Virus record (IMG/VR): IMGVR_UViG_3300034198_011113
Coordinates: 1-21,900 of that record
Reading direction: 5' to 3' (one strand)
Length of the DNA stretch: 21,900 nucleotides
DNA from: a virus
Shown: piece by piece, positions 4,720 through 21,900 of the stretch
Numbering within the stretch: position 1 is the stretch's first letter
Layout: the number at the start of each line of letters is the position of its first letter
Made by a program: the position numbers and the translations under genes
Notes under the pieces: generated by a model
The model's database searches: none
Seen by the model: only the letters and a program-made list of their open reading frames with translations
Told to the model about the DNA's origin: nothing

Positions 4720-7700
4720 ATGTCAGAAACTAAAATATCAGAACTTTTCGGAACACCATTTGTATCTTTTCTACATAGAGTAAAAATAGAAAAGATTGAA
4801 AACTTTTTAAAACCAAAATCCGAGTGGAAAGTTTTAAATACATTTGAAATAGTATCACCAGAAAAAGTCGGAACTGGTGAAAGTAGATTATTTAATATTA
4901 AAATAATTGAAAAAATAGACACCCCATTTATACGAGGTTCTATAGAAGTTCTAGATAAAAATGACTGGATAGGTCAAATGAATTTGAATGGTAGCGAAAG
5001 ACTAACCATTGAATTTGCATATATCGATGATTTGAATATAGTGAAACTTGAATTTTTTGTTTATGGTGCAAAGATCATTAATAATTTCAGCAATGAAAAC
5101 TCTGTCAGAATTGGTTCTAGTGAGAATGTAATAGTATATGAATTGGAGTTTATGTCTGATGAAATATTTAATAATACATTTAATAAATCAATTCTAGAAT
5201 TTGATAAAGATTTTGTTGGATTAATTGCAAAAAATCCTTCATCAGAAGGTGACATTGTGGTTGGTGGTAGATCCTTTGGAAGAGCTAGAAATATCAATGA
5301 AAATCAAAATGAAGATTCCGAAGAAATACCAGGTCTTGTAAACGAACTAGCAAGAAAATTAAATCTAACACCAATAGAAATAGAAGAAACTAAAAATGGT
5401 ATCTGGTTGAAGAGTGGGGAAATTAGTTTTCCTACTTCTCTCCCACAAGGTCAAATAAACACCGCGGCATTAATGAATTATCTTACGGAATATGCAGTTC
5501 CAAAAAATAATACAAATGCAGCAAACTATTTCTTCTGGAAAGATAGAGATGGATGGCACTTCAAGAGCATTGAGTCCATTTTAAAGAAAAATAAAGGTGA
5601 ACCGGTTGTAGAATTTGATCTCAATACCGATGATCTCTTAAACAAATATAGAGTTTTAAACATAAGTGTCTTGTCTCAGCATAATAATTTGCAATTGTTT
5701 CAAAATAATGCGTTTATGTCGCATTATGTGAGAATAGATCCAGATTATAAGAATGTTTATTTTGATTTTTTGAGCAGCAATAAAGGGTTTACATATTCAT
5801 TAGTCGATTACGATTATCATAGAGATTTTTCCAAAGTAAGTCATATAGAAAGTAATAAACTTCTATCGGATTCAGTAGAAACTAGTTCAGTAAAATCCAT
5901 TAAAGTTGGTAAAAATAATACTCTAAAAGAAGTACCAATCCCAGCAACATTAAGCAGAGATAATGTTTTTAGTCATTATAATACTAATACCTTTAACACT
6001 CCATTTCAATACAATATACACCATTCTGCAGACTTTGGATTTGGTAAAAGACCAGAAGAACCAGCCTATGTTTGGTGGGATTATTTAGATCGTGAAAATG
6101 ATTCTAGATGGTCAAATGTTGCATGGCAACCTCAATTTGATATAACCGAATTAGAAATATCAAAATTACATAAAATTTACAAGTACATTAGACAACCACT
6201 TGAAGAAAAGAGAAAAGAATTTGTAAGACTTAAAAATTTAAAACGAAAGTGGGAAGTTTATAGATGTGTTGTTTGTTGTTCTAATAGTATACCCGGAAGC
6301 CCCGAAGATGTTGAAATAATAAACAATCCAGAAATTATTAATGATCCAGAAGAATATAATTTCCTCTTCGGTGAAGATGGTATTTTTTCAGAAGCCGGTC
6401 AAGAATATAAAATTGTAGCAGCCGGATCTTTTACTGACACTATTGATTATGATTCCCAAAATGAAAAAATACAACACGGGCTAACTTTATCGATAAATTT
6501 AGAAAACATAAACATCAACAATCCAAGTATTGTTCCTCCGGGGGTGGCCGCCGACGATTATAAGCCAAATGAATGGTACAAATCTAGTATAGGTAAATTT
6601 TACAATATGAAGAGTCCAAGCAATATTTCTTCATATGTAAATACTGTTCTACAGAGAGGAATAAATCAATATAATTCTGAAATTGGTATAATTGATTCTA
6701 AATTATTAGATATCAATACCTTTCTATCGGCTGTCGATTCTTATATATCAGAAGCAGATAACTGGATCACTAGTAGAATTTTACCCTGCTGCGAACCACC
6801 AGAAAATACAACAACACCAATTAGTGGATCCTCCACTTCTTCTTTACTTGAATTTAGATCTGCTTTATTAGGAAACTCTGGTGACGATGGCGGCGGTTGT
6901 AGTGCTCCCGAACCCTGTTGTTCGTGTCCAGATACTTGTTTCTTTTGTGGGACTGATAACTTATGGAAATGTGGAGGAGATTTTTGTGAACCAGATGGAG
7001 GTGGTGGTGGCGGTGGTGGTGGAGGTGGGGGGTGCGATGAGACATTAGGTAGAAGTTGTAGTCTCTACTGTAATGGTCAATTAATAGAATGTCGGACAAC
7101 TACTTGTAATTATTCTGGAGCAGATTCATGTGATTCATTATTTCAATCTGCTGGGCAATCAGCATGTCCCGGAAGAATCATTGTTGATAAACTGGTTTTA
7201 CCAGGAGAAGTTGGATGCTCAGAGCCGGGTGATGAGTGGGGTTCGTGTTGTGTGAACTGTGGAGATAATCAGGTTGATGATGATATACCATGTAACTGTT
7301 TGGAATATGTTCCATATGGTATATGCGAACAACGAGGAGTGCAATTAGGCGATCCAAATAGAGCAACATGGTTTAAAGAAAGAACTTGTGATCAGATTAA
7401 TAATTGTGGAATTACATTTAATAATTATAATCTATGCGAAGAGGGAGCAACTGCATGTTTACGACAGGGATGTACCGATCCATTAACTGGAAGTGTATTT
7501 AGTAAAGAACCAGCAGCTTGTGTTGGTTATAATTATGTTGATGGATTAGGAAATGTACCTCTAATAACACTGCCATATGGTATGTGTACGAAATGTAATA
7601 ACTTTTCCACTAGTGCTTTAGATGTGGAATATGATGATTCAAACTGCTGCAATTGTACATTAGAACAAGCAACCACATATTCTCCACTTCCACAATGGGC

Positions 7701-10380
7701 AGGACAATGCTCTAGAGAAAAGTTTATGAAGACTTTGATTCAGTACATAGGAACTGAAGCCAAATGGTATAATGATTATAGATTTATGCCAGGTGGGGGA
7801 TCTGCATTTGAGGATGTGGATTTTTATATTGGCCCGAATGGTGATCCGGCAACCGCCAGAAGATGTGTAGAGGAAGGCGATTGCTATAATGCATTATGTT
7901 TCAATCCACTATATCTTGAAGTAGAAAAGAGAAGAGCAGAACAAGAAATAAACATATTAAACGCAGAGCGCGCCTTACTAGTTTATGCTAGAGACATATT
8001 TGCACAAAACTTCATACAAAAATTTGAAGATAATTATGAAACATGGTGGAATAGAAGAGCATTCTTCTACTCTGTAATTCCCGGGAAAAATGTATTTACT
8101 GATGTATCTACTGGAATAACTGGTAGCATAGTTGGTGGTAGAACAGGACCAATACAATTCTCAGAAAAATCTCTGATGAATGTAAAGTCAATTAAAAAGA
8201 AACCAATACGCGGTAGTAGATATGAATTGTTAGCTAAAAATAAAGGTATAACTGGAGCCGTAGTTGGTGAATGGTTGTATAATTTCTTCTGGGGAGATGT
8301 GAGTGCTGCTGCACAGGGAAACAAACACCCATATTATTCACAAAAATATCAAAGTCCATTTGTTTCGCAGAGACAATTGTTTAGCAATTATCTATACAAC
8401 GAAGACGCAAACAAATTGAACAATTTTCCGTTTGCATCTTTATATGCTCCTACTGGTTGCGGAAATCCATCTTCTTTAGCAGAAAGGGCATATATTAGCG
8501 TACCAGAGCAGCAAATGATTGAAAGTGGTTATTCTTCTCAGTTTACTAAACTATTTAAAACACAAATAGATTTAAACGGATCACAAATAACACCACTACA
8601 ATTCCAACGATCATTTGATTTATTTCAGATTGAAAATCAGACAATACCTGCAAATCTTAAAAAAGAACAATTAAGTTCTTATGTTAGAATAGAATTTAAA
8701 ACACCAATTGGTCTAGATAGAATTGTAGATTTTCCAAATGGATTTATTAGAGATGCAGGAACTGAATATTTCCTACCTTACTTGGTTTCTCTGACTGCAG
8801 GACCAACAGGAAGACAAACTATAAGAAATAATGTAGTAGTTATTGGAATGGATCCTTATGGGTTTGATGTTGCCGTAAAGAAATCAAAGGTCGAAGATGA
8901 AGAAACCGAAAAACAATATACTTGGTGGAGTGAATATAGAAATCTAAACGACACTACACTTTCTAGTAACGGGATGGATCTTTGGCCAGAAGTTGGGTTT
9001 GAAACTTTATATCCGTATTATGCAACAGATCCAAAGGGTTGGTGGTGGGACTCTGAATGGTATCATGGTCAATCGGATATAAATCTTCTTTTAGATAGAA
9101 CCAATAATTATGATTGGTATACAAGATCTGCTGATGTAGATCCTGAATATAAAGAAAGCGCACATGCTAGTGGATATCTGCAGCATTCATATAGAAAAAT
9201 TAAACCACATAGATCATGGTGGTCTTTCCACATACCCAAGAATATATTCATTCCGCAAAAACTATTTAACGTACTTTCTACAAAATTTGGAAAGATAAGT
9301 GGTGATAGTAGTGGTATATTGGGTGATATATTTGCATACAAGTATAAGGATTATTATTGGTGGTATGGTGATGAAGTAGATAGATGGTTAAGACTTACAC
9401 CAGAAGGCAAAACATTCGTAGAATCATTTGGATTGAAATTGTTAAGTGTTCTTTCGACCGATTTAAATTTTGAAAATCCATTGGCAAATCATGCCTTTGT
9501 ACATTCACAAGATTCGGTAAATGAATTACATCCTGGATTGCAAAAGTATTTCTATGAAACCACAATGCACTGGATGTTTGGTGATTTCATGCTTTATAGA
9601 CCAAATTTGATAGAACAAAATGTTTGGAAATATGATTTAACTGGAGAAACCGATTATGGTATGGTGTCACCCAAAACAATGGCACCAAATTATGATGTAT
9701 TTGATGATAATTTTTCTGCACAATTTATAGTTTTCTCAAGACAAACTGATCTCTGTAAGCAGTTTACCTGCGCTAATCCAGAAGGAGAATCTGATAATAG
9801 CAATTGTCCAGCGGATCAACCCCTCTGCAATTGTCCGGCTCAAGAGCATATTCCAGATGAACCGGAACCAACTTATCTAGAACTATTCAAAGCATATAAA
9901 GAATTAAAAGAATGCGAATTAATAGAAGAACATCTCGGGGAGGAATACCTTGGTTGTGTATGGAGCGATCCGGCTAATCCATGTAGTTGTAACTGCCCAG
10001 AAATTGGAGAAAAGTTTCAAGAGTATCTAGAATATTCCAGAACCTATGCAACTTTCTGGGATACACCAAAACAAACACCTTTAGTTAGAAAAGCACTAAT
10101 AGCACAACTATTCTCACAAACAATAGTTATTCATGTCACAGGTACCAGTAAAGTTAAAATTGGAGATATAGTAAGAATAAAACAACTAAATTCATCTAAT
10201 GCTCCCGTAGAAACTTTAGAGAAAAATTTAAGTGGCAATTGGATGGTTGCAAGTGTAGTTATTAATTTCAAGAAAGATTCGGCACAATCGTTATTTTTAA
10301 CTCTAGTCAGAGATACGCTTCCGAGAAGCACCAATTTCACTATTCAAAATTTGAATAGTATATTAGATCAATATGTTTAA
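4720..10380 (+). CDS. Giant hub-position structural protein (1886 aa), gp27-like ends with Cys-rich centre
   Basis: It lies between gp53 and gp25, where T4-like marine phages place a hub gene. The N-terminus (residues about 60-170) contains RGSIEVLDKNDWIGQMNLNG and TIEFAYID, like the first domain of hub proteins. The C-terminus (about 1800-1880) has VKIGDIVRIKQ, GNWMVASVVINF and LFLTLVRDTLP, like the hub domain that closes such proteins. Between them is a very long insertion. Residues 690-1060 hold about 39 cysteines by my count, many as CC or CxC pairs, plus 12 consecutive glycines (760-771). A second Cys cluster lies near the C-terminus (CNCP, PCSCNCP). The 1090-1550 stretch carries six Trp-Trp sites or is flanked by them. 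T4 gp27 is only 391 residues. I see no lysozyme motif. The hub role is inferred; the start ATG has only a distant AAGG. Confidence 0.6.
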   Translation: MSETKISELFGTPFVSFLHRVKIEKIENFLKPKSEWKVLNTFEIVSPEKVGTGESRLFNIKIIEKIDTPFIRGSIEVLDKNDWIGQMNLNGSERLTIEFAYIDDLNIVKLEFFVYGAKIINNFSNENSVRIGSSENVIVYELEFMSDEIFNNTFNKSILEFDKDFVGLIAKNPSSEGDIVVGGRSFGRARNINENQNEDSEEIPGLVNELARKLNLTPIEIEETKNGIWLKSGEISFPTSLPQGQINTAALMNYLTEYAVPKNNTNAANYFFWKDRDGWHFKSIESILKKNKGEPVVEFDLNTDDLLNKYRVLNISVLSQHNNLQLFQNNAFMSHYVRIDPDYKNVYFDFLSSNKGFTYSLVDYDYHRDFSKVSHIESNKLLSDSVETSSVKSIKVGKNNTLKEVPIPATLSRDNVFSHYNTNTFNTPFQYNIHHSADFGFGKRPEEPAYVWWDYLDRENDSRWSNVAWQPQFDITELEISKLHKIYKYIRQPLEEKRKEFVRLKNLKRKWEVYRCVVCCSNSIPGSPEDVEIINNPEIINDPEEYNFLFGEDGIFSEAGQEYKIVAAGSFTDTIDYDSQNEKIQHGLTLSINLENININNPSIVPPGVAADDYKPNEWYKSSIGKFYNMKSPSNISSYVNTVLQRGINQYNSEIGIIDSKLLDINTFLSAVDSYISEADNWITSRILPCCEPPENTTTPISGSSTSSLLEFRSALLGNSGDDGGGCSAPEPCCSCPDTCFFCGTDNLWKCGGDFCEPDGGGGGGGGGGGGCDETLGRSCSLYCNGQLIECRTTTCNYSGADSCDSLFQSAGQSACPGRIIVDKLVLPGEVGCSEPGDEWGSCCVNCGDNQVDDDIPCNCLEYVPYGICEQRGVQLGDPNRATWFKERTCDQINNCGITFNNYNLCEEGATACLRQGCTDPLTGSVFSKEPAACVGYNYVDGLGNVPLITLPYGMCTKCNNFSTSALDVEYDDSNCCNCTLEQATTYSPLPQWAGQCSREKFMKTLIQYIGTEAKWYNDYRFMPGGGSAFEDVDFYIGPNGDPATARRCVEEGDCYNALCFNPLYLEVEKRRAEQEINILNAERALLVYARDIFAQNFIQKFEDNYETWWNRRAFFYSVIPGKNVFTDVSTGITGSIVGGRTGPIQFSEKSLMNVKSIKKKPIRGSRYELLAKNKGITGAVVGEWLYNFFWGDVSAAAQGNKHPYYSQKYQSPFVSQRQLFSNYLYNEDANKLNNFPFASLYAPTGCGNPSSLAERAYISVPEQQMIESGYSSQFTKLFKTQIDLNGSQITPLQFQRSFDLFQIENQTIPANLKKEQLSSYVRIEFKTPIGLDRIVDFPNGFIRDAGTEYFLPYLVSLTAGPTGRQTIRNNVVVIGMDPYGFDVAVKKSKVEDEETEKQYTWWSEYRNLNDTTLSSNGMDLWPEVGFETLYPYYATDPKGWWWDSEWYHGQSDINLLLDRTNNYDWYTRSADVDPEYKESAHASGYLQHSYRKIKPHRSWWSFHIPKNIFIPQKLFNVLSTKFGKISGDSSGILGDIFAYKYKDYYWWYGDEVDRWLRLTPEGKTFVESFGLKLLSVLSTDLNFENPLANHAFVHSQDSVNELHPGLQKYFYETTMHWMFGDFMLYRPNLIEQNVWKYDLTGETDYGMVSPKTMAPNYDVFDDNFSAQFIVFSRQTDLCKQFTCANPEGESDNSNCPADQPLCNCPAQEHIPDEPEPTYLELFKAYKELKECELIEEHLGEEYLGCVWSDPANPCSCNCPEIGEKFQEYLEYSRTYATFWDTPKQTPLVRKALIAQLFSQTIVIHVTGTSKVKIGDIVRIKQLNSSNAPVETLEKNLSGNWMVASVVINFKKDSAQSLFLTLVRDTLPRSTNFTIQNLNSILDQYV
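6997..7032 (+). repeat. GGN trinucleotide run coding 12 glycines
   Basis: Twelve consecutive glycine codons (GGA, GGT, GGC and GGG mixed) encode Gly760-Gly771 of the giant protein. The run lies inside its Cys-rich region, between CEPDG and CDET. It is GC-rich within AT-rich DNA and is probably a flexible linker, and it may vary in length between relatives. Confidence 0.9.
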
Positions 10381-10398: not shown

Positions 10399-10806
10399 AT
10401 GGCACAATATCTAAATAAAAACTTATTCTCAGACTTACCGTTCTTTTTTACTAAAAATAGCTTTACGGATGATATAAATTTAAAAAAAGATGGTAATGCA
10501 ATAGCATCATCCCTACAGAATATAGTTCTAACAAGAATAGGCGAGCGTCCATTTGATTTTAAATTTGGTACTAGTATTAATGATCTATTGTTCGAAAATA
10601 TTGATAATTCTAGTGTAGCATTAACTAAATATAAAATTGAGATTGCCAATGTAATAACACTATATGAACCTAGGGTTATGGTTGGTTCAATTAACCTAAT
10701 TCAAGATCCAAATAACTTCTATTTAATTTCAATTGCAATAGAATACACAGTGCTACATACAAATAGTAGAAATACATTAGTAGTAGGAATGGAAAGGACT
10801 AGGTAA
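10399..10806 (+). CDS. 25: gp25 baseplate wedge protein
   Basis: At 135 residues the protein has the usual size of the GPW/gp25 family (PF04965). It shows the family core: INLKKDGNAIASSLQNIVLT, then GERPFDFKFGTSINDLLFEN, and the EPR motif at residues 90-92 (YEPRVMVGSI). In T4, gp25 sits in the inner wedge core with gp53 and gp6 and contacts the sheath, helping to trigger contraction. Its fold is related to T6SS TssE. The stop TAA overlaps the gp6 ATG (TAATG), so gp25 and gp6 are probably coupled and made together. No ribosome site precedes the ATG. Confidence 0.93.
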   Translation: MAQYLNKNLFSDLPFFFTKNSFTDDINLKKDGNAIASSLQNIVLTRIGERPFDFKFGTSINDLLFENIDNSSVALTKYKIEIANVITLYEPRVMVGSINLIQDPNNFYLISIAIEYTVLHTNSRNTLVVGMERTR

Positions 10807-12566
10807 TGTCAACAACACCAACAAATATTCTTGGTAAACTAGACTTTGAAGATATCAAGGAAAGTCTAATAAATTATCTAAAAAGTCAATCCATAATTAA
10901 AGATTATAATTTTGAAGGATCTGCTATTAGAACTTTAATAGATTTAATGGCATATAATACTTTTTATTATGCATATTATATGAATATGGTTTCTAGTGAG
11001 ATGTTTTTAGATTCTGCACAAAGAATAGATTCAATCATTTCACTTACAAAACCTTTAGGATATACCGTTTCTGGTAGAAGATCCTCCAGAGCGAGAATTT
11101 TAATAACTGGAATAAACAGAGCAGATTTAACAGAAATACCAGAATATCAAACCTTTTACGGAATAGACTCAGATGGTATTCAGTATACTTTTGTTAATCT
11201 CGATCCATTCATAGTACAAGACAGTGATTCTGAAGTTGAAATAACAGAAGGTCAGTTGGTTGTGGATAGTTCTGCAGTTACTTCAATTGATTTAAGAAAT
11301 CAAAAATATTTTATTTTAAATGAAAATGTAGATTTATCCACCATACAGGTAAAAGTAAATAATGAGATATGGAAACTAGTGGGAAACATAGGATCTAATT
11401 TCGAAGTAAATGATAATATTTACTTTATAGAAAGATTGAGCACTGGTGGATATGTTGTTCAGTTTGGTATAGGAAATAGTCTAGGAACTGAAATATCGCA
11501 GGATGATGATGTTGTTATACGATACATGGTTTCAAGTGGTAGTGTTGCAAATAATATATTTCAATTCACAGATTCTGCTTCTAATACTTATAGAGAAGCA
11601 CCAGAAGGAAACATAGACATTGGAGTATCGTGTGAAAATTGCAATGAGTCCAGTGGTGGTCTAGATGAACCAAATATAAATCTTATTAAATTTTTAGCAC
11701 CAAAGTGGTTTGCTTCCCAAGGAAGAGCAGTAACCAAAGGTGACTATTTGGGTTTATTATTAGAATCAAATTATATAAATGATCAAAATGATGTTGCCAT
11801 ATTTGGCGGAGACGAGGTATTCCCACCAAAATATGGTAGACTTTTTGTTTCTGTTGTTAATAATAATGTAGATGCAATATCCATTATAAATTACTTACGA
11901 GAAAATTCAGTTGTTACAGTTTTACCCGAATATGTAACTCCCAAATATGTAAATTTTGTTGTTGACTTTAGTTTTATATACACAAAACAGGCACCATCTG
12001 AATTAGATAAACGAATTGCCACTAGGAATGTTAAAACTGCAATTCAAAACAAACTAGTTTTAAATAAATTTAATAGTACATTTGATCCATACACAATATC
12101 ACAAGATTTAAACGAATCTCTGACAAATGTAGTATTGAATGGAAATACATTTAAAATTTCATTAAGACAAGATGTTTTACCTGATTTTACTGGTGGTGGG
12201 GAAATTTCTTTAAATATAGGTAATCCTTTTTCTTTCCCCAGTCTAGGACAGACATCGATAACTACACCATTTCAGTTTAAGAGCGATGATGGAACTACAC
12301 GAAATATAGTTTTAAAGGTAATAACAACCCCAACTACAAGTTTTAATAAACCAATAAAATTAAGAGCATTTGATGCAAATACAAATAGAGAAATACAAAA
12401 TATAGATTTTGGTAGTATTCAAATAAACACTGGAACTGTCTATATTCCAGACATTGCATTGAATCCATACACTATAACGATACCCCTTAAGAATAATATT
12501 CTAGAATCACGCACCAATAATATTAGTAATATTTTATTAAGAGAACCAGATATAATTCTACAATGA
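10806..12566 (+). CDS. 6: gp6 baseplate wedge protein
   Basis: This 586-residue protein has the gp6 / Baseplate-J-like plan. Near the N-terminus is the helical block DFEDIKESLINYLKSQ, then DYNFEGSAIRTLIDLMAYNT and RIDSIISLTKPLGYTVSGRR. Near residue 300 is FLAPKWFASQGRAVTKGDYL, and then EVFPPKYGRLFVSVV. In T4, gp6 dimers form the inner ring of the baseplate and bind gp25, gp53 and gp7. A CENC motif (C276, C279) interrupts the sequence just before the QGRAVT block. The start overlaps the gp25 stop, and its own stop overlaps the next ATG (ATGA at 12563-12566). Family assignment is strong. Confidence 0.92.
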   Translation: MSTTPTNILGKLDFEDIKESLINYLKSQSIIKDYNFEGSAIRTLIDLMAYNTFYYAYYMNMVSSEMFLDSAQRIDSIISLTKPLGYTVSGRRSSRARILITGINRADLTEIPEYQTFYGIDSDGIQYTFVNLDPFIVQDSDSEVEITEGQLVVDSSAVTSIDLRNQKYFILNENVDLSTIQVKVNNEIWKLVGNIGSNFEVNDNIYFIERLSTGGYVVQFGIGNSLGTEISQDDDVVIRYMVSSGSVANNIFQFTDSASNTYREAPEGNIDIGVSCENCNESSGGLDEPNINLIKFLAPKWFASQGRAVTKGDYLGLLLESNYINDQNDVAIFGGDEVFPPKYGRLFVSVVNNNVDAISIINYLRENSVVTVLPEYVTPKYVNFVVDFSFIYTKQAPSELDKRIATRNVKTAIQNKLVLNKFNSTFDPYTISQDLNESLTNVVLNGNTFKISLRQDVLPDFTGGGEISLNIGNPFSFPSLGQTSITTPFQFKSDDGTTRNIVLKVITTPTTSFNKPIKLRAFDANTNREIQNIDFGSIQINTGTVYIPDIALNPYTITIPLKNNILESRTNNISNILLREPDIILQ

Positions 12567-13705
12567 ACTATTCTTACCTGGCAAGTAAATCACTAAGTCT
12601 TGCATCCCAATTGGGTGCTTTTTTTGATCAACTTAGTAATAATAATGGGTTTGATGTTTCATGTCCTAGTTTGTTTAGTATAGCAAAAAATACACCACTT
12701 TGGATTGTTCACGAAAAACACAATAAACAAGGAGAGGGTGAAGTTGTTCTTACAATATTTGACTTCTTGCAAAAATATTATGATTGGTTATATTGCGATG
12801 AATCAGAGGGTGCTCAATATTTTTTATCCCAAAAACTATTGGATCTAATTGACATTGAAACTACCAGAAAAGAATATTATAAGAGATTTGTTACTACTTA
12901 TGCTAATGGCGTAGAGGATAAAGTATTATATCTTCCCGGAAGTAGTCAAACATATGATTCAGAAAAACTTATAAAGTTTATTAAAAATATATCAAAAAAT
13001 TTATATCACAAAAAAACAACAATAGAAGGTATAAAACATTTTCTAAGAACACTATTTCCTCTTTTTAGTGAAAGTGATTTTTATATCTACTATCCAAAAC
13101 AAAATCTATTAAGATTGAATGGTGGTAAATTTAATACTGATAAATTTAAATTTAGAGATGCTACAGGAACATACGACGAAACCAATCATTTAGGTGGGGG
13201 TTACCTAAATGGATCCGTGATGCAAGATTCAGATTGGTTTCAGGACTATTCCTATTTGCTTAAAACCGGAATACCATTAAATGAGTATGAAGTTTCGTAT
13301 AAAAATATGATGCATCCTGCTGGTCTTAAAGTTATTTTTGAAAAGACCATAGAGGATTATCCGGGAGTCGGAGAAACAGAAATAGAAACACTTGTTTGTG
13401 AACGCCCAATACTAGGAAATTATTCAATGTATCAGTTGGGAACGACATATAATGTTAAAATCGGAATTGGTAATTATGCTGGATCTACTTATTCTTTATA
13501 TGGATTAACATTTTGTGAAAATTGTGATCTTGCGGCTCCTTGGGGTATAACGTACCCTTCTCATGTATTTCCAAATTGGTCTGGTTCTATAACCGGATAT
13601 AGGTTTGATGATATAAATATTTCAGATTTCTTTAACATGTGTTTCGTTCAGGGATTCACTAGTCCAAATGCAGGATTAACATGCAGCGAAGGCTGCATAT
13701 CTTAA
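12563..13705 (+). CDS. gp7-position baseplate wedge protein
   Basis: The product has 380 residues. The N-terminal half is helical (FDFLQKYYDWLYCDESEGAQ, then NISKNLYHKKTTIEGIKHFL and RTLFPLFSES). It is followed by a beta part with DFYIYYPKQNLLRLNGGKF, then the block VMQDSDWFQDYSYLLKTGIP and MMHPAGLKVIFEK. This plan is found in virion structural proteins of marine T4-like phages that connect wedge and fibre, in the place where gp7 sits. It is much shorter than T4 gp7 (1032 residues), so equivalence is by position only. Near the C-terminus it carries CENC (C318, C321) and ends in CSEGCIS. Its ATG overlaps the gp6 stop, and the next gene begins 8 bases after its end. Confidence 0.6.
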   Translation: MNYSYLASKSLSLASQLGAFFDQLSNNNGFDVSCPSLFSIAKNTPLWIVHEKHNKQGEGEVVLTIFDFLQKYYDWLYCDESEGAQYFLSQKLLDLIDIETTRKEYYKRFVTTYANGVEDKVLYLPGSSQTYDSEKLIKFIKNISKNLYHKKTTIEGIKHFLRTLFPLFSESDFYIYYPKQNLLRLNGGKFNTDKFKFRDATGTYDETNHLGGGYLNGSVMQDSDWFQDYSYLLKTGIPLNEYEVSYKNMMHPAGLKVIFEKTIEDYPGVGETEIETLVCERPILGNYSMYQLGTTYNVKIGIGNYAGSTYSLYGLTFCENCDLAAPWGITYPSHVFPNWSGSITGYRFDDINISDFFNMCFVQGFTSPNAGLTCSEGCIS

Positions 13706-13713
13706 GGAAAAAG

Positions 13714-15471
13714 ATGAATAAAGTAACAGATTATATCAATAAAATAGGAAGAGAAAAATACCCATATTTATTGGTAGGGAAAACACAAAGCACAGAAATC
13801 AATACAAATAGCACTAGGTTATTCATTGATGGTTGGAGAGATGCGGATCTCACATATAAAGTTACAAGGAATGATGTTTCTGGTGTCATTGAAAACATAC
13901 AGTGGGCCAGATCAAAGATGTTTATTCCTTGGGATGCAAATCTAGCACAGACACAAACGAATTATTATGTGTATAATTCGCAAAATCAATATGTTTATCT
14001 CTGTATTTCGAATAATGATTATAATAGATCAGATTTAGTTGGTCAAGTTAGCACAGTAAGACCAACACATACTACAGGAATTCAAAAATATTCTGATGGA
14101 TTTTCTTGGTTGCCTGTTTATAAAGTAACCAGTAGTATGCAAAAATTTGTCTCTTCTAATTGGATACCAATAATTAGTCTTGATAATTTTGAAGAGCCAG
14201 TACAAGGAAATACCCCTTGGGAAAAGGTAAATTATTTTTGTAATTCTTCACCGACAACCGAAGGGTTCTGTGCTGTGTATTTAAATAAGACTAAATCTAT
14301 ACCAACATCTAGTTCTACTTACGATTATTATTCAGCTGGTGATTTATATGCAACATTTGAATCAACGTGCAGTGAATGTTATTTTTCATTTAATGATAAT
14401 TTAGACGATGATTATACTTCTTTATTTTACGAAGACAGTTCAGATATACCATCTTCAATTAGTGTTGCTGGAAAACTTGATTTAGTCGGAGATCTAATAA
14501 GTGAAGGAAAAATTTCAACCAATTCACCATACTATAGTTTGTATCAAACTTGGTTACAAAATGGTATAGAAGATGGGGGTGTTGTTTCTGTTTTCATAGA
14601 TTTATCAGACATGCAACCATCTGAACTAATCACGAATTCCGAGTCCCCCACAATAAGTGTCATAAGTTCTACTGGTTCTGGTGCCAGAATAAGAATAAGT
14701 ACATTTATAAATGAAAGTGGAAATTATCAAATGAGAGGAATTGAATTACTTTCTCATGGACAAGATTATAAAGATATTGTTTTAAAGATGCAAAATTCTT
14801 CAAATTTTAATATTTCAGAAGCAGATCTCATATCAAGAATAAAAATCAATTTAGATAGAGCAGATTTATTAGGGTTAGATCCTTCACAACTATTTAATTG
14901 CAAAAATTTAATGACACATGTTACCTTTGGAAATCAAGAACTAAATTCAGATAGTATAGATTTTCCCTCTTTAATAAATTTTTATAGTTTGGTTGAAAAT
15001 CCATCATTCATAGATGAAAACCAAAATGAAGTAATTGCAGGAACACAGAATACTACAAAATATACAAAAGAAATTAAATCTTATAGAACTTTATTTAAAA
15101 TTTTAAAAACTGGTTTAGGGTTTGGTGAAGAAGCAGCACTCGAATCTCAAGACCAAGCACTACCAGTTATAATGGAAAGACCAAACGAAACCCAGCTTAC
15201 ATCTGCGTACATAAAGGACATCGATTCCACTAGCGATCCAACATATACAATAATAAAAATAACAGGAGATGTTAAAACATCTATAGAATCTGCGACAAAA
15301 ATAGAACTAGAAGATGGTACTATTTTAGTTGCAGATGAAGTAATAGTACCAGATCATGTTAGACAATTTACTGGAACTTTACTTAATGGAAAAATATTTG
15401 ATACACGAACAACCAGAGATGTATCTGGAAATGCAGCAATCACATTTAGTATAACAACCCCAATGAGTTAA
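13714..15471 (+). CDS. gp8-like baseplate wedge protein
   Basis: The ATG at 13714 is preceded by AAGGA (13704-13708) and gives 585 residues starting MNKVTDYINKIGREKYPYLL; an in-frame ATG at 13681 would overlap the previous gene. Features resembling gp8 are FIDGWRDADLTYKVTRND, QYVYLCISNNDYNRSD, TGIQKYSDGFSWLPVYKV and, near the C-terminus, LPVIMERPNETQL, which compares with the closing MENRPPI segment of T4 gp8. T4 gp8 (334 residues) dimerises in the wedge. This protein is longer because of an inserted middle and a C-terminal extension. A CSEC pair (C219, C222) lies in the middle. The next gene follows after 2 bases. The assignment is moderate: order and motifs agree, but similarity by eye is partial. 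Confidence 0.6.
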   Translation: MNKVTDYINKIGREKYPYLLVGKTQSTEINTNSTRLFIDGWRDADLTYKVTRNDVSGVIENIQWARSKMFIPWDANLAQTQTNYYVYNSQNQYVYLCISNNDYNRSDLVGQVSTVRPTHTTGIQKYSDGFSWLPVYKVTSSMQKFVSSNWIPIISLDNFEEPVQGNTPWEKVNYFCNSSPTTEGFCAVYLNKTKSIPTSSSTYDYYSAGDLYATFESTCSECYFSFNDNLDDDYTSLFYEDSSDIPSSISVAGKLDLVGDLISEGKISTNSPYYSLYQTWLQNGIEDGGVVSVFIDLSDMQPSELITNSESPTISVISSTGSGARIRISTFINESGNYQMRGIELLSHGQDYKDIVLKMQNSSNFNISEADLISRIKINLDRADLLGLDPSQLFNCKNLMTHVTFGNQELNSDSIDFPSLINFYSLVENPSFIDENQNEVIAGTQNTTKYTKEIKSYRTLFKILKTGLGFGEEAALESQDQALPVIMERPNETQLTSAYIKDIDSTSDPTYTIIKITGDVKTSIESATKIELEDGTILVADEVIVPDHVRQFTGTLLNGKIFDTRTTRDVSGNAAITFSITTPMS

Positions 15472-15473
15472 TT

Positions 15474-16103
15474 ATGTCATCACCATTATCATCATCTCCC
15501 TATAATAGTAGAAATATAGAATATCCAAAATATGCATTAGTTGCATTTAAGCCAGGAACCAGCCTACAGGCATCTGAGTTGAATGAAATTCAAGAAAATA
15601 TGCTAATGCAACTAACTCAAACAAATAGATTTTTATATGATATTTCATCTGGTGATTCATATTTTTCTGGTACTTTTCTGTCTTCGTTTAATTATCCATT
15701 AATAACTACCTTAAATGAAATAACATTATCAAGTAGTGGTTCATCTCTTTCATTAAATATAGGAAATTCATCTTGGATTAATATTCCGATTAACGATCAA
15801 TATAGAGTTTGGTGTAAACCAGAAAGTACTTCTCTTACCATACCAACAACTGGTGGGACTGTATATGTTTCTTACGAATCTTCATTTGTTCCTTGTTCTT
15901 CAAATAGTCAAGATGAGGGTTATATTTTTAATGATAATTCTGGTGGAGTAGATAGCGGTTGTGGTGCAGATAGAGTTAAAGTTTCTGCTACATTGACTGC
16001 ATCGGCATCGTCTTCTGTTGAATTATTTACAGTCGTACCAGCACAAGATCAACAATACACAATAAAGGATAAGTTGAATAGAGAAATAACTATTTCAATT
16101 TAA
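15474..16103 (+). CDS. Small baseplate/fibre-base structural protein (FKPG-LQASELNE module)
   Basis: This 209-residue protein has a conserved N-terminal block (YALVAFKPGTSLQASELNEI, residues about 21-40, then QENMLMQ). Such blocks appear near the N-termini of phage structural proteins that attach fibres to the baseplate. The rest is Ser-rich and beta-like. It is a clear paralogue of the last 220 residues of the next gene: both contain AFKPG..LQ..ELNE.QE, a W.N.P..D...VWC block, NSQDEGY.F.D and GADRVKV. It begins 2 bases after the gp8-like stop, with only a weak site upstream, which suggests coupling. Its precise role is unknown; a rim or fibre-adaptor role is inferred. Confidence 0.6.
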   Translation: MSSPLSSSPYNSRNIEYPKYALVAFKPGTSLQASELNEIQENMLMQLTQTNRFLYDISSGDSYFSGTFLSSFNYPLITTLNEITLSSSGSSLSLNIGNSSWINIPINDQYRVWCKPESTSLTIPTTGGTVYVSYESSFVPCSSNSQDEGYIFNDNSGGVDSGCGADRVKVSATLTASASSSVELFTVVPAQDQQYTIKDKLNREITISI

Positions 16104-16110
16104 TTGATAT

Positions 16111-18246
16111 ATGCCTATATTTAATAAGAAAGCAAAAAATTTAATATACGTCGAAATAGAAGAAATTGATCCCCAAACTGGTCAAAACACTTTATATCCG
16201 TTGTTTGGTGATGTTATATGTGATTGTATAAATGCAAATGATGCAGATTCATATCAAGATCATGTTGATAATAAATGGGACTATTATACTTATAGAACAG
16301 ATCAGGTAACGGATGGTATACAACATCCTTCGGTTGCACCGCGGTCGAACCCATATAATCAAGTATATGCAGTATCCGCAAATGGCATTAACCAAAACTG
16401 CTGGATCAATGATTTAGTCGATAATCCTCCTCTTTCTATTCCCATTTCAGTAGGAACTAGAGGGTTCAATGCTAGTTATTTTTTTCCATCTTTCACTATT
16501 TTGAGTATCGAATGTGATAATGATTACAACGAACCATGTTGGAATGCTTTCACCCCATCTCTCAATCCCAAATCACCTTTTTTTTATAGAAGTTTAATTT
16601 TGGAAAGTTTTAAAACTTGTGGACCAGATCCATTTGCAGAAATAGATAAAGCAAGAAGAAAAATAAATAATTGGGCACCAACGACTTCTGCAGTCATTCC
16701 AATATCACCAAGACATGTTCTTTTGTGTGGACATTGTGTTGGCCGACTGGGTGGCCCGACCGGCACGGGCATAGAAACCTATGTGGTTTTATACGATCCA
16801 GTAGCCCAAACTTTTGTTGGAAGATTAGTTAGAACTGTTACTCCGACGATTCCAGAAGGCCCCTGTGGTGGTCTTAGTGAGTTTCATTACAGTCTAGCCG
16901 CTTGTCGAGATGTTCGGATAGCAGAAATTGTAAATCCCGATGAGACTTTTCCAATTTATTTTACTGAATATTTAAACCCTTATTCATACAAAGATTGGAT
17001 TAGAACTACTAATCAAAATTTAAATAATGGACTCGTTGCTTTTTTTCTAGATCAGCATGGTGTTTTTTCTTTGGGAGAGTTACAATTTTCAAAATTATCA
17101 TTAATTCAAGATAATGGTACTGACCAGACTGGAGTGCAGCCAGATCTACAGATTGGATTAAGATATGAAAAAATAAAAGATATAGATCAACCCAAATTTG
17201 TAAACCTTAAACCGGGAGATAGTGGTACTAGTTATTTTCATTATACTAAAAATGGAAATATTTTATGGCCCGGGGGTTCATATTTTGGCCAGTATATCAC
17301 TAAGGCTTGGACAAAAATTGATGGAAAGTTTTTAGTTGATGAAGTAAATCAATATCTTAGAAGTGTTGGTGAGAGAGAATTAGAAGAGTATACCGATTTT
17401 GATAATATATACAAATTTTCTGATTTTGTCAGTATTCCGGGTGGATCCGATCCATCTTCTGATCCCGAATCTCCCGCACAATATACAATTTCGTCAGATG
17501 ACAATCGTAGTCAATTTAAACACATATTAAATATATTTCCATATTTAAGTAGAAAACTAGAAATACAAAATAAAAACTACAACTATCTTGCGTTTAAACC
17601 TGGAATCCTATTACAGTCTGCAGAATTAAATGAGTTCCAAGAACATATTTTATTACAACAGTCTTTAACTTTATCTTTAGCAAATAATTGGCCACTATTT
17701 GGTAAAAAATATCAAAAAGAAAATAACTTAGATTTTAGTGTTTACGAAGAATTCAGTGGTAAATTCGATGAAATATACGAATTCCCTATTCCAAATGAAA
17801 ACTATTGTATTTCGCAAAAACCATCACAAATACAAATATTAAGTGTAGGGAATGGTCTATACATTACAATATCAGAAGGTTGGTACAATGTTCCCGTAAG
17901 AGACGAAACTGTTTGGTGTTATTTGGATCAGCCCCAAACTATTCTATTGAATATAGGTTCCAGTATAGATACCCAAATTTATATCATTGTAAATGAAGAA
18001 ATTGTACAATCCTCATTTAATTCACAGGACGAGGGTTATGAGTTCCATGATAAATCAAATAGATTTTTAAATCCAATAACAGATGGCGCAGATAGAGTTA
18101 AAGTCACTTTACAACTCACCGAATTTCCAGAAAATGGAGCAGTTCCCATACTTAGAGTAAGAAAAAATACAGATACTTTCATATCATCAAATAGAATTTT
18201 GGTTCAAAGCATGAATAAGTACAAAATATTTGATATAAATAACTAA
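16111..18246 (+). CDS. Chymotrypsin-like serine protease fused to a baseplate/fibre-base module
   Basis: The product has 711 residues in two parts. The first part (about 1-440) carries a convincing chymotrypsin-fold triad in order: H208 in HVLLCGHCVG (compare the TAAHC box), D267 in CRDVRIAEIV, and S371 in LKPGDSGTSYF (the GDSG box). The spacings of 59 and 104 residues suit this fold (45 and 93 in chymotrypsin). Several cysteines are spread through it, one next to the His as in trypsin. A Ser/Pro/Asp linker (about 444-470) leads to the second part (about 490-711), a paralogue of the preceding 209-residue protein. There is no signal peptide. A virion-borne protease acting on host surface or tail proteins is inferred; only the triad is seen. 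No ribosome site precedes the ATG. GC is locally high just after the His box. Confidence 0.65.
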   Translation: MPIFNKKAKNLIYVEIEEIDPQTGQNTLYPLFGDVICDCINANDADSYQDHVDNKWDYYTYRTDQVTDGIQHPSVAPRSNPYNQVYAVSANGINQNCWINDLVDNPPLSIPISVGTRGFNASYFFPSFTILSIECDNDYNEPCWNAFTPSLNPKSPFFYRSLILESFKTCGPDPFAEIDKARRKINNWAPTTSAVIPISPRHVLLCGHCVGRLGGPTGTGIETYVVLYDPVAQTFVGRLVRTVTPTIPEGPCGGLSEFHYSLAACRDVRIAEIVNPDETFPIYFTEYLNPYSYKDWIRTTNQNLNNGLVAFFLDQHGVFSLGELQFSKLSLIQDNGTDQTGVQPDLQIGLRYEKIKDIDQPKFVNLKPGDSGTSYFHYTKNGNILWPGGSYFGQYITKAWTKIDGKFLVDEVNQYLRSVGERELEEYTDFDNIYKFSDFVSIPGGSDPSSDPESPAQYTISSDDNRSQFKHILNIFPYLSRKLEIQNKNYNYLAFKPGILLQSAELNEFQEHILLQQSLTLSLANNWPLFGKKYQKENNLDFSVYEEFSGKFDEIYEFPIPNENYCISQKPSQIQILSVGNGLYITISEGWYNVPVRDETVWCYLDQPQTILLNIGSSIDTQIYIIVNEEIVQSSFNSQDEGYEFHDKSNRFLNPITDGADRVKVTLQLTEFPENGAVPILRVRKNTDTFISSNRILVQSMNKYKIFDINN
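18234..18241 (+). promoter_or_regulatory. T4-type late promoter motif (TATAAATA) before the first fibre gene
   Basis: TATAAATA overlaps the last codons of the protease-fusion gene and lies 19 bases before the fibre ATG at 18261. A late transcript from here would have a leader of about 12 bases, purine-rich but with no Shine-Dalgarno. This would let fibre genes be expressed separately from the baseplate genes. Confidence 0.45.
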
Positions 18247-20570: not shown

Positions 20571-21900
20571 ATGCCTTGTGGAAATAGTTCAAACATCAAT
20601 GTTTCTAAAACTTTCGTAGAGGTAAATCCTGCTGCATATTCTAGTAGTAGATTTGTCGTTACAATTCCAAGTAGTAGTTATACCGCAGGTATCACCGGAG
20701 GGGATGTAATTTATTACGATGTTGCAACCGCAAGATATAAAAAAGCAAAAGCGGACGATCCCATTACTTCTGAAGTATTTGGTATAGTTGAAGCTAGAAA
20801 TAGCATAAGTGGTAGCATAGATGTCGTCACTCAGGGTTCAATTAATTTCCCATCTACTGGATTTACTGCAACTTCGGGTGGAGGCGGGGCGGGTGGATTG
20901 GATGTATATTTTTTGAGTGACACAGATGCAGGAAAAATACAACCACTTTCACCGACAGAAGTTGGTCATATAGTTAAACCGGTATATCAAGTAGGAACTC
21001 ACGGTGGTTCTTATACTGGTTTAGTTACAAATTATATTGGATATAATATAGGAACTGAAGTTGAAACTACAGTTGGTGGATTTTCTAGTGGTTTAGGTAG
21101 TTTAGTTTTTACATTTGGTGTCATTGATGATCCTTCGTATGTTGATCTTTCGTTTAGTAGTTTACCGTCAAGATTTTTACCAATTAGTGGTAATGAAGAT
21201 TTATTTAATATAATCAGAGGTAGATATGGGTTCGTTTATTCCATAAAACTTAAAAAAAGCACCGATAGTTCTCCAATAACTTTACAAACAAGTGCTCAGC
21301 TCGGAAATGCACCTGGTGGGAAACAGGGTGCTTCTTGGTTGGCGTACTATGAGTCAGGAAAACAACTAGCACCTAGAGCGGAATCGGATGTTACATCGGG
21401 GCCTGTTACTGTATTTCCGTATTATAGAATAAGTATTTTTGGAGCATATGGTGGTGATCCTATTGTAACGGGCGATCCGGAAGATGAAAGAGTATTTAAT
21501 AATTCTTGGGGTTCTTTTTATAATAATTCGGCAATACGGGACTCTACCTATATCGGATTGATTGATAGTGATGATGGTTCGTATGGGAGTTCTGGAGTAA
21601 TTCAAAAATTAAAAGATGAAAATTTATATGATGAATCTGTTTGGTATTTTTCTACTTCAGCCGGAGGTAGAGAACAGGCTATCTCTAATCCTTCCGATCC
21701 AGCTAGTCAACTTGTTGGAGCACCTACTTTGCCAACTAAAAATGGTTTAAGCACAACCACTGCAAATAATTACAAGTTCATCATTGATACCTGGGGAAGT
21801 TCTATAGGTTATTCAAATGGAGGTTATGATATAGTTCTTGCAGAGCCAGCAACAATAGTTGGGTTTTATTTACCAGAAATGAAATTTATTGGGCCGATTG
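20571..21900 (+). CDS. Beta-rich fibre or virion surface protein, 3' end outside the window
   Basis: The frame is open from the ATG at 20571 to the window edge, 443 codons with no stop. AGGAG ending at 20564 lies 6 bases before the ATG, one of the best ribosome sites on the plus strand. The protein begins MPCGNSSNINVSKTFVEVNP. Residues about 35-165 form a beta module with VFGIVEARN, then DVYFLSDTDAGKIQPLS and VGHIVKPVYQVG, related to the YFLSD module of the preceding fibre. After that are an aromatic and Gly-rich stretch and YYRISIFGAYGG, which I do not recognise. The two genes are 12 bases apart and probably co-transcribed. It is likely a second fibre or a fibre-associated decoration; the function is inferred from position and from the shared module. 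Confidence 0.65.
   Translation, partial: MPCGNSSNINVSKTFVEVNPAAYSSSRFVVTIPSSSYTAGITGGDVIYYDVATARYKKAKADDPITSEVFGIVEARNSISGSIDVVTQGSINFPSTGFTATSGGGGAGGLDVYFLSDTDAGKIQPLSPTEVGHIVKPVYQVGTHGGSYTGLVTNYIGYNIGTEVETTVGGFSSGLGSLVFTFGVIDDPSYVDLSFSSLPSRFLPISGNEDLFNIIRGRYGFVYSIKLKKSTDSSPITLQTSAQLGNAPGGKQGASWLAYYESGKQLAPRAESDVTSGPVTVFPYYRISIFGAYGGDPIVTGDPEDERVFNNSWGSFYNNSAIRDSTYIGLIDSDDGSYGSSGVIQKLKDENLYDESVWYFSTSAGGREQAISNPSDPASQLVGAPTLPTKNGLSTTTANNYKFIIDTWGSSIGYSNGGYDIVLAEPATIVGFYLPEMKFIGPI

Follow-up and report, generated by a model that had tools for sequence, protein, structure and literature searches.

A putative trypsin-fold protease joined to a duplicated adaptor domain in the baseplate and tail-fibre gene cluster of a T4-like virus

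In an uncultivated T4-like virus, an open reading frame (ORF) of the baseplate and tail-fibre gene cluster joins a domain with an invariant His-Asp-Ser triad and a predicted chymotrypsin-like fold to the second of two related adaptor domains. The window is the whole 21,900-nucleotide stretch of DNA that was analysed (IMG/VR record IMGVR_UViG_3300034198_011113, positions 1 to 21,900). With moderate confidence, we read the product of this ORF as a protease carried by the virion at its baseplate rim, an accessory component that would cut host-surface proteins at adsorption; its catalytic activity, its incorporation into the virion and its host-surface target are what we infer. The C-terminal domain would be copy 2 of an adaptor present in duplicate between the wedge and tail-fibre genes, with the N-terminal part displayed at the rim as an active clan-PA serine protease (H208-D267-S371). 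At adsorption the protease would cut a protein of the host envelope (a receptor, surface layer or sheath), and this cleavage would clear the path or commit the virion, so that the enzyme would do with protein what the depolymerases of other tails do with polysaccharide. An earlier note, made from the sequence alone, had proposed a protease domain joined to a T4-type baseplate/fibre protein, and the triad, profile matches to S1 structures, the fold search and the gene order all support this.

The surroundings of the ORF are a T4-type baseplate/fibre cluster (Table 1), whose gp6 has best annotated matches below 30% identity, mostly in cyanophages. The gp5-like ORF of the window (1886 aa, 4720-10380, plus strand) has a long Cys/Gly-rich centre with many CC and CxC motifs and a poly-Gly run, which is unusual in a baseplate protein. 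A minus-strand ORF at 3-854, rich in Asn and with repeats of the type NESNTRNVNQN, runs off the window start.

Table 1. Features of the protease-adaptor ORF and its neighbours, in window coordinates.
Feature	Position	Strand	Basis or remark
gp25-like baseplate protein	10399..10806	+	position, conserved neighbourhood, tblastn to corresponding genes
Baseplate wedge gp6	10806..12566	+	phrog_219, E 4e-90
Baseplate wedge protein	12563..13705	+	phrog_17744, E 4e-11; tblastn to L025, 7e-9
Baseplate wedge subunit, T4 gp8-like by position	13681..15471	+	phrog_438, E 2.9e-15
Adaptor copy 1, stand-alone, 209 aa	15474..16103	+	ORF list, alignment to copy 2
Whole ORF, 711 aa	16111..18246	+	N-terminal region, protease domain, adaptor copy 2; ORF list
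Protease domain, residues about 86-445	16366..17445	+	alignments A5 (family) and A9 (orthologues); fold model and search; profile-profile match
Codon of H208, predicted catalytic His	16732..16734	+	invariant, 45/45 family + 6/6 orthologues
Codon of D267, predicted catalytic Asp	16909..16911	+	invariant, 45/45 family + 6/6 orthologues
Codon of S371, predicted catalytic Ser in GDSG	17221..17223	+	invariant, 45/45 family + 6/6 orthologues
C-terminal adaptor domain, copy 2	17527..18243	+	35% identity to copy 1; weak PF16075 match
Tail fibre, 765 aa	18261..20558	+	phrog_4492, E 7.6e-25; conserved downstream neighbour
Fibre-like ORF, runs past window end	20571..21899	+	conserved order

That the C-terminal part duplicates the adjacent small protein, as had been suggested, is confirmed by alignment: residues 473-670 match copy 1 over 201 columns (E 6e-21). 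Copy 2 carries a DUF4815-like N-terminal motif, FKPGxxLQxxELNExQE, and both copies resemble DUF4815 (PF16075) over a short N-terminal stretch, with scores (21.7 bits for copy 1, 12 bits for copy 2) below its gathering cut-off of 30 bits. We found 224 relatives of the copy 2 domain in IMG/VR, and most of those examined are stand-alone proteins of 210-350 aa. In T4, the genes that follow gp8 specify rim components of the baseplate, namely its pins and the parts to which fibres attach, and for this reason the adaptor pair is probably located at the rim as well.

The putative catalytic residues lie in the motifs LLCGHCV (from residue 204), RDVRIAE (from 266) and GDSGTSYF (from 369), in the chymotrypsin order that the earlier note had read from the letters. 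A whole-protein scan of IMG/VR found one relative, L003, with 63% identity, the same gene order and the triad kept. The N-terminal parts of the two proteins are about 50% identical, and within the first 450 residues the only runs of identity of at least 9 residues are ISPRHVLLCGHCVG (His motif) and GDSGTSYFHYTK (Ser motif), which argues that the triad is more than chance. Conservation around the triad, when tested, gave a weak result, as 18 of 349 circular shifts reached its value and the true triad ranked 116th among 288 triples, and we rely on the identity runs instead. Four more orthologues (L096-L099) were picked through the C-terminal adaptor domain only, without a protease motif; two are 54-55% identical to the window protein over its whole length (L096, L097) and two 32-33% (L098, L099). 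All five relatives share the full-length architecture, and H208, D267 and S371 are invariant in the six sequences, even where HVLLCGHCV has become VAIATFHTL or a close variant (L098/L099). We regard this as the strongest evidence for the triad, since the sequences were not chosen on a protease motif and loss of these residues from otherwise intact homologues had been named beforehand as the outcome that would count against a protease. On these sequence comparisons, the predicted catalytic triad H208-D267-S371 is real.

The nucleophile motif is GxSG in all six, being GDSG in the window and L003, GSSG in L096/L097 and GQSG in L098/L099, so that position 194 holds Asp, Ser or Gln across the orthologues and varies within L096-L099. 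Trypsin-style zymogen activation is therefore unlikely: in S1A peptidases a free N-terminus pairs with Asp194 after zymogen cleavage, an arrangement that the window domain probably lacks, and the domain starts some 85 residues into its chain.

A wider family was collected with the pattern ISPRHVLxxxH, followed by profile-guided scans, and comprises 57 viral and 10 bacterial-genome loci. GDSG lies 117-176 residues after the His motif in nearly all of them (169 in the window). Across 45 aligned sequences (the window, L003 and 43 further phage or bacterial-bin relatives), the invariant columns are the P, R, H and L of the search motif together with H208, D267 and S371; neither the Asp nor the Ser was part of the search pattern. 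The family profile matches chymotrypsinogen C in the PDB (4.3e-6), as well as factor IX and trypsin, all 60 matches listed being S1 peptidases, and a profile built without the window and L003 still matches S1 structures (4.2e-5). After its His motif, the window sequence itself has a weak similarity to the family, with an HMM score no better than that of shuffles. That score gives way to a comparison of profiles, in which the profile of the six orthologues aligns with the family profile over 185 columns (E 2.3e-8) with His, Asp and Ser in register, and the proteases of L109/L112 match both of these profiles (9.8e-20 and 2.2e-10).

The assignment to the S1-type peptidases thus stands in part. 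The chymotrypsin-like fold and the matches to S1 structures agree with it; the curated models PF00089 (Trypsin) and PF13365 (Trypsin_2) find no match in the window at E 10 or better, and because these models miss the domain we place it in a divergent clan-PA family and not in curated S1. Searches of Pfam, NCBIfam and PHROGs, phmmer against the PDB, and tblastn of annotated phages returned nothing specific for the protease part, a scan of genome contigs with the full window protein gave no match, and neither the orthologue profile alone nor the narrower family profile A3 found a relative in the PDB. The only PDB match of a window plus L003 profile was the complex I subunit NDUFA12 (about 58 residues), which we took as chance. 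The L109 protease has a sub-threshold Pfam match to Peptidase_S6 (3.3e-4). With the clan PA families S1 (chymotrypsin/trypsin) and S6 (IgA1 protease) the window domain shares the His-Asp-Ser order, GxSG and a predicted double barrel, and it differs from them in lying inside a longer chain, in being fused to a phage adaptor and in its unconserved Asp194.

A family-guided AlphaFold2 model of residues 82-442 (pLDDT 57.7, pTM 0.63) has core blocks with pLDDT 70-88; residues 82-171 are unreliable and an insertion at about residues 120-175 is poorly modelled. Its best Foldseek matches in the PDB are chymotrypsin-fold proteases (best E 1.4e-4), and VIA-align superposes it on haptoglobin, thrombin, chymotrypsin and trypsin folds (Z 10.8-12.0, rmsd 3.5-4.8 over 176-207 residues), with haptoglobin at the top, tied with active enzymes. 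A fold other than the double beta-barrel had been set down in advance as evidence against a protease, and the fold predicted is chymotrypsin-like. A control given the window and L003 only yielded no fold; because family sequences fed the model, it supports the predicted double beta-barrel chymotrypsin fold without being independent proof of it.

Comparison of gene order suggests how the domain came to its place. The window, L003 and L096-L099 share the order gp5-like, gp25, gp6, wedge, wedge subunit, copy 1, protease plus copy 2, and fibre. Seven relatives with this order (L100-L106) have both adaptor copies and four (L107, L108, L110, L111) have one; no protease was found in these contigs, which are partly truncated. 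Since relatives of the same gene order keep both adaptors without it, the protease is accessory. In L109/L112 the two copies flank a separate protease ORF of 395 aa, which shares four bases with copy 2 (the two ORFs lie in 6808-8657) and closes with YPYSSR, the beginning of the adaptor motif. This looks like either the splitting of a once fused gene or a stage of coupled genes from which a fusion later arose. In a gp6 tree (FastTree, with long branches unsure), the fused forms group in a single supported clade, in which L134 is a truncated contig; L109/L112 stand apart, and L024/L025, L014 and L070 are far off. The likely starting point was two DUF4815-like adaptors in tandem, placed between the wedge and fibre genes, and the protease was gained or lost more than once.

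Several other T4-like lineages also carry such a protease among their wedge and fibre genes, so that the arrangement is not unique. In L024/L025/L026 and L005, the protein directly after gp6 joins a baseplate-wedge N-terminus (PF23786, 9.9e-8) to a family protease, with 1454-1583 aa where complete, and the N-terminus of the L024/L025 fusions corresponds in kind to the wedge protein encoded after gp6 in the window. The protease directly follows gp6 in L074, is the third gene after gp6 in L070, and comes after gp25, gp6 and two large ORFs in L014, while in L142 it is fused to the same adaptor domain as in the window ORF. Other members adjoin tail-fibre or hyaluronidase-type (depolymerase-type) genes; one lies downstream of a collagen-like ORF (L027), and in podovirus ct3Et533 the family gene, annotated as hypothetical, follows a rhamnogalacturonan lyase. 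Uncultured phages have attached this so far unlabelled family to their tails several times, probably for cutting host-surface proteins.

The window and L003 differ mainly in one block, which runs from the start of the small adaptor ORF to roughly residue 500-540 of the 711-aa ORF and has about 50% amino acid identity and a dN of 0.4-0.6. Outside it, identity is 88-94% and dN 0.03-0.07, both in the flanking genes and in the last 150 residues. By analogy, a block that diverges between sister phages while its flanks do not would fit a pattern frequent in host-contact genes. However, dS is raised within the block too, so that rapid evolution and the recombinational gain of a divergent allele are equally likely, and we count it against our preferred reading that the block may be a recombined allele. 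The block is sharply bounded at window positions 15474-17730, covering copy 1 and the protease and not the end of copy 2, and looks like an exchanged cassette.

Among the other explanations, we consider it unlikely that the enzyme acts in maturation, cutting itself or the neighbouring fibre or adaptor during assembly and not the host. The presence of protease and adaptor in one chain would suit this role, for which the S74 tail-spike peptidase, a C-terminal auto-protease and intramolecular chaperone with another fold and other catalytic residues, is a precedent. Like the window ORF, S74 proteins have a protease built into a tail protein, but their S74 domain sits where the window ORF has its adaptor domain, and the Pfam scan of the ORF gave no S74 match at E 1 or better. 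The peptidases of jumbo phages are also mostly read as virion maturation enzymes (PMC7824862). Self-processing is made less likely by the sister phages, which keep both adaptors and the fibre without any protease; moreover, protease and adaptor are separate genes in L109/L112, and family proteases adjoin unrelated tail genes in other phages.

It is improbable, in our judgement, that the chymotrypsin fold serves solely as a receptor-binding head that cuts nothing, in the manner of haptoglobin. That non-enzymatic protein was the top structural match, if tied with active enzymes, and the variation of Asp194 in L096-L099 points the same way, but a pure binder would not need the His, Asp and Ser that never vary in the aligned sequences, which makes a role in binding only less likely. 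Still less probable is a late role, such as defence against host proteins, of a protease injected or released at infection to act in the cell or periplasm: a tail position permits delivery, and clan-PA proteases are able to work in the periplasm, but the gene lies at the wedge-fibre junction and not with the hub or tape measure, and no signal or injection feature was identified in the window protein. We give very little credence to a mere coincidence of motifs in a domain of some other fold. The missing Pfam S1 and NCBIfam matches, the failed two-sequence fold prediction and the noise-level similarity after the His motif would be expected in that case; against them stand the triad in orthologues picked without protease motifs, the orthologue-family profile comparison and the uniform S1 identity of the PDB matches listed. 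A host-envelope target is the most likely one, given a protease that is accessory and diverging, keeps its triad intact and would sit at the baseplate rim.

Enzymes that phage tails use for entry have mostly been described as acting on polysaccharide or peptidoglycan, and the words 'protease' and 'proteolytic' are absent from a review of tail enzymes (PMC6116005). The window protease fits a tail-borne enzyme in that its gene lies in, and is fused to, tail/fibre structural genes; it resembles the tail-associated polysaccharide depolymerases as an accessory enzyme domain among, or fused to, tail and fibre proteins, and differs in that it is predicted to cut protein. Another functional likeness, compared by description, is PA-PP (PP141_gp30), a phage structural protein reported to digest a porin and assigned to the serine proteases by peptide matching (PMC6748951); what it would have in common with the window ORF is proteolysis by a virion protein, in its case of an outer-membrane protein. 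A trypsin-like protease gene has been listed for the T4-superfamily Rhizobiaceae phages phiM9 and P10VF (PMC10783043), likewise T4-like myoviruses, but P10VF_080 is a stand-alone 229-aa Trypsin_2 protein encoded outside the baseplate genes. It was rejected as a family relative for its noise-level scores against the family profiles. Literature searches, with most subscription journals outside their coverage, found no report of the protease-adaptor architecture.

More broadly, and with some doubt, we suggest that uncultivated tailed phages carry trypsin-fold proteases on their tails, that these form a family not recognised until now and joined to T4-type baseplate parts on several occasions, and that host-surface proteolysis is a general entry strategy. 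If true, this strategy would run parallel to that of the polysaccharide depolymerases. The baseplate-fibre protease and its protease-free relatives of the same gene order offer a direct test of whether host-surface protein is cut in infection, and dozens of environmental phage genes that lack annotation, with a few from bacterial bins, now have a predicted activity. Most of the ten bacterial-genome loci are in Verrucomicrobia, Pirellulaceae or Kiritimatiellae bins, and those of L082-L090, which may be prophages or misbinned phages, hint at PVC hosts. L016 has two family ORFs close together on its minus strand (reverse-complement positions 2063 and 4585; 5.9e-103 and 3.7e-79), and a single metagenome sample, 3300042691, yields several different family members (L003, L011/L032, L033 and L042).
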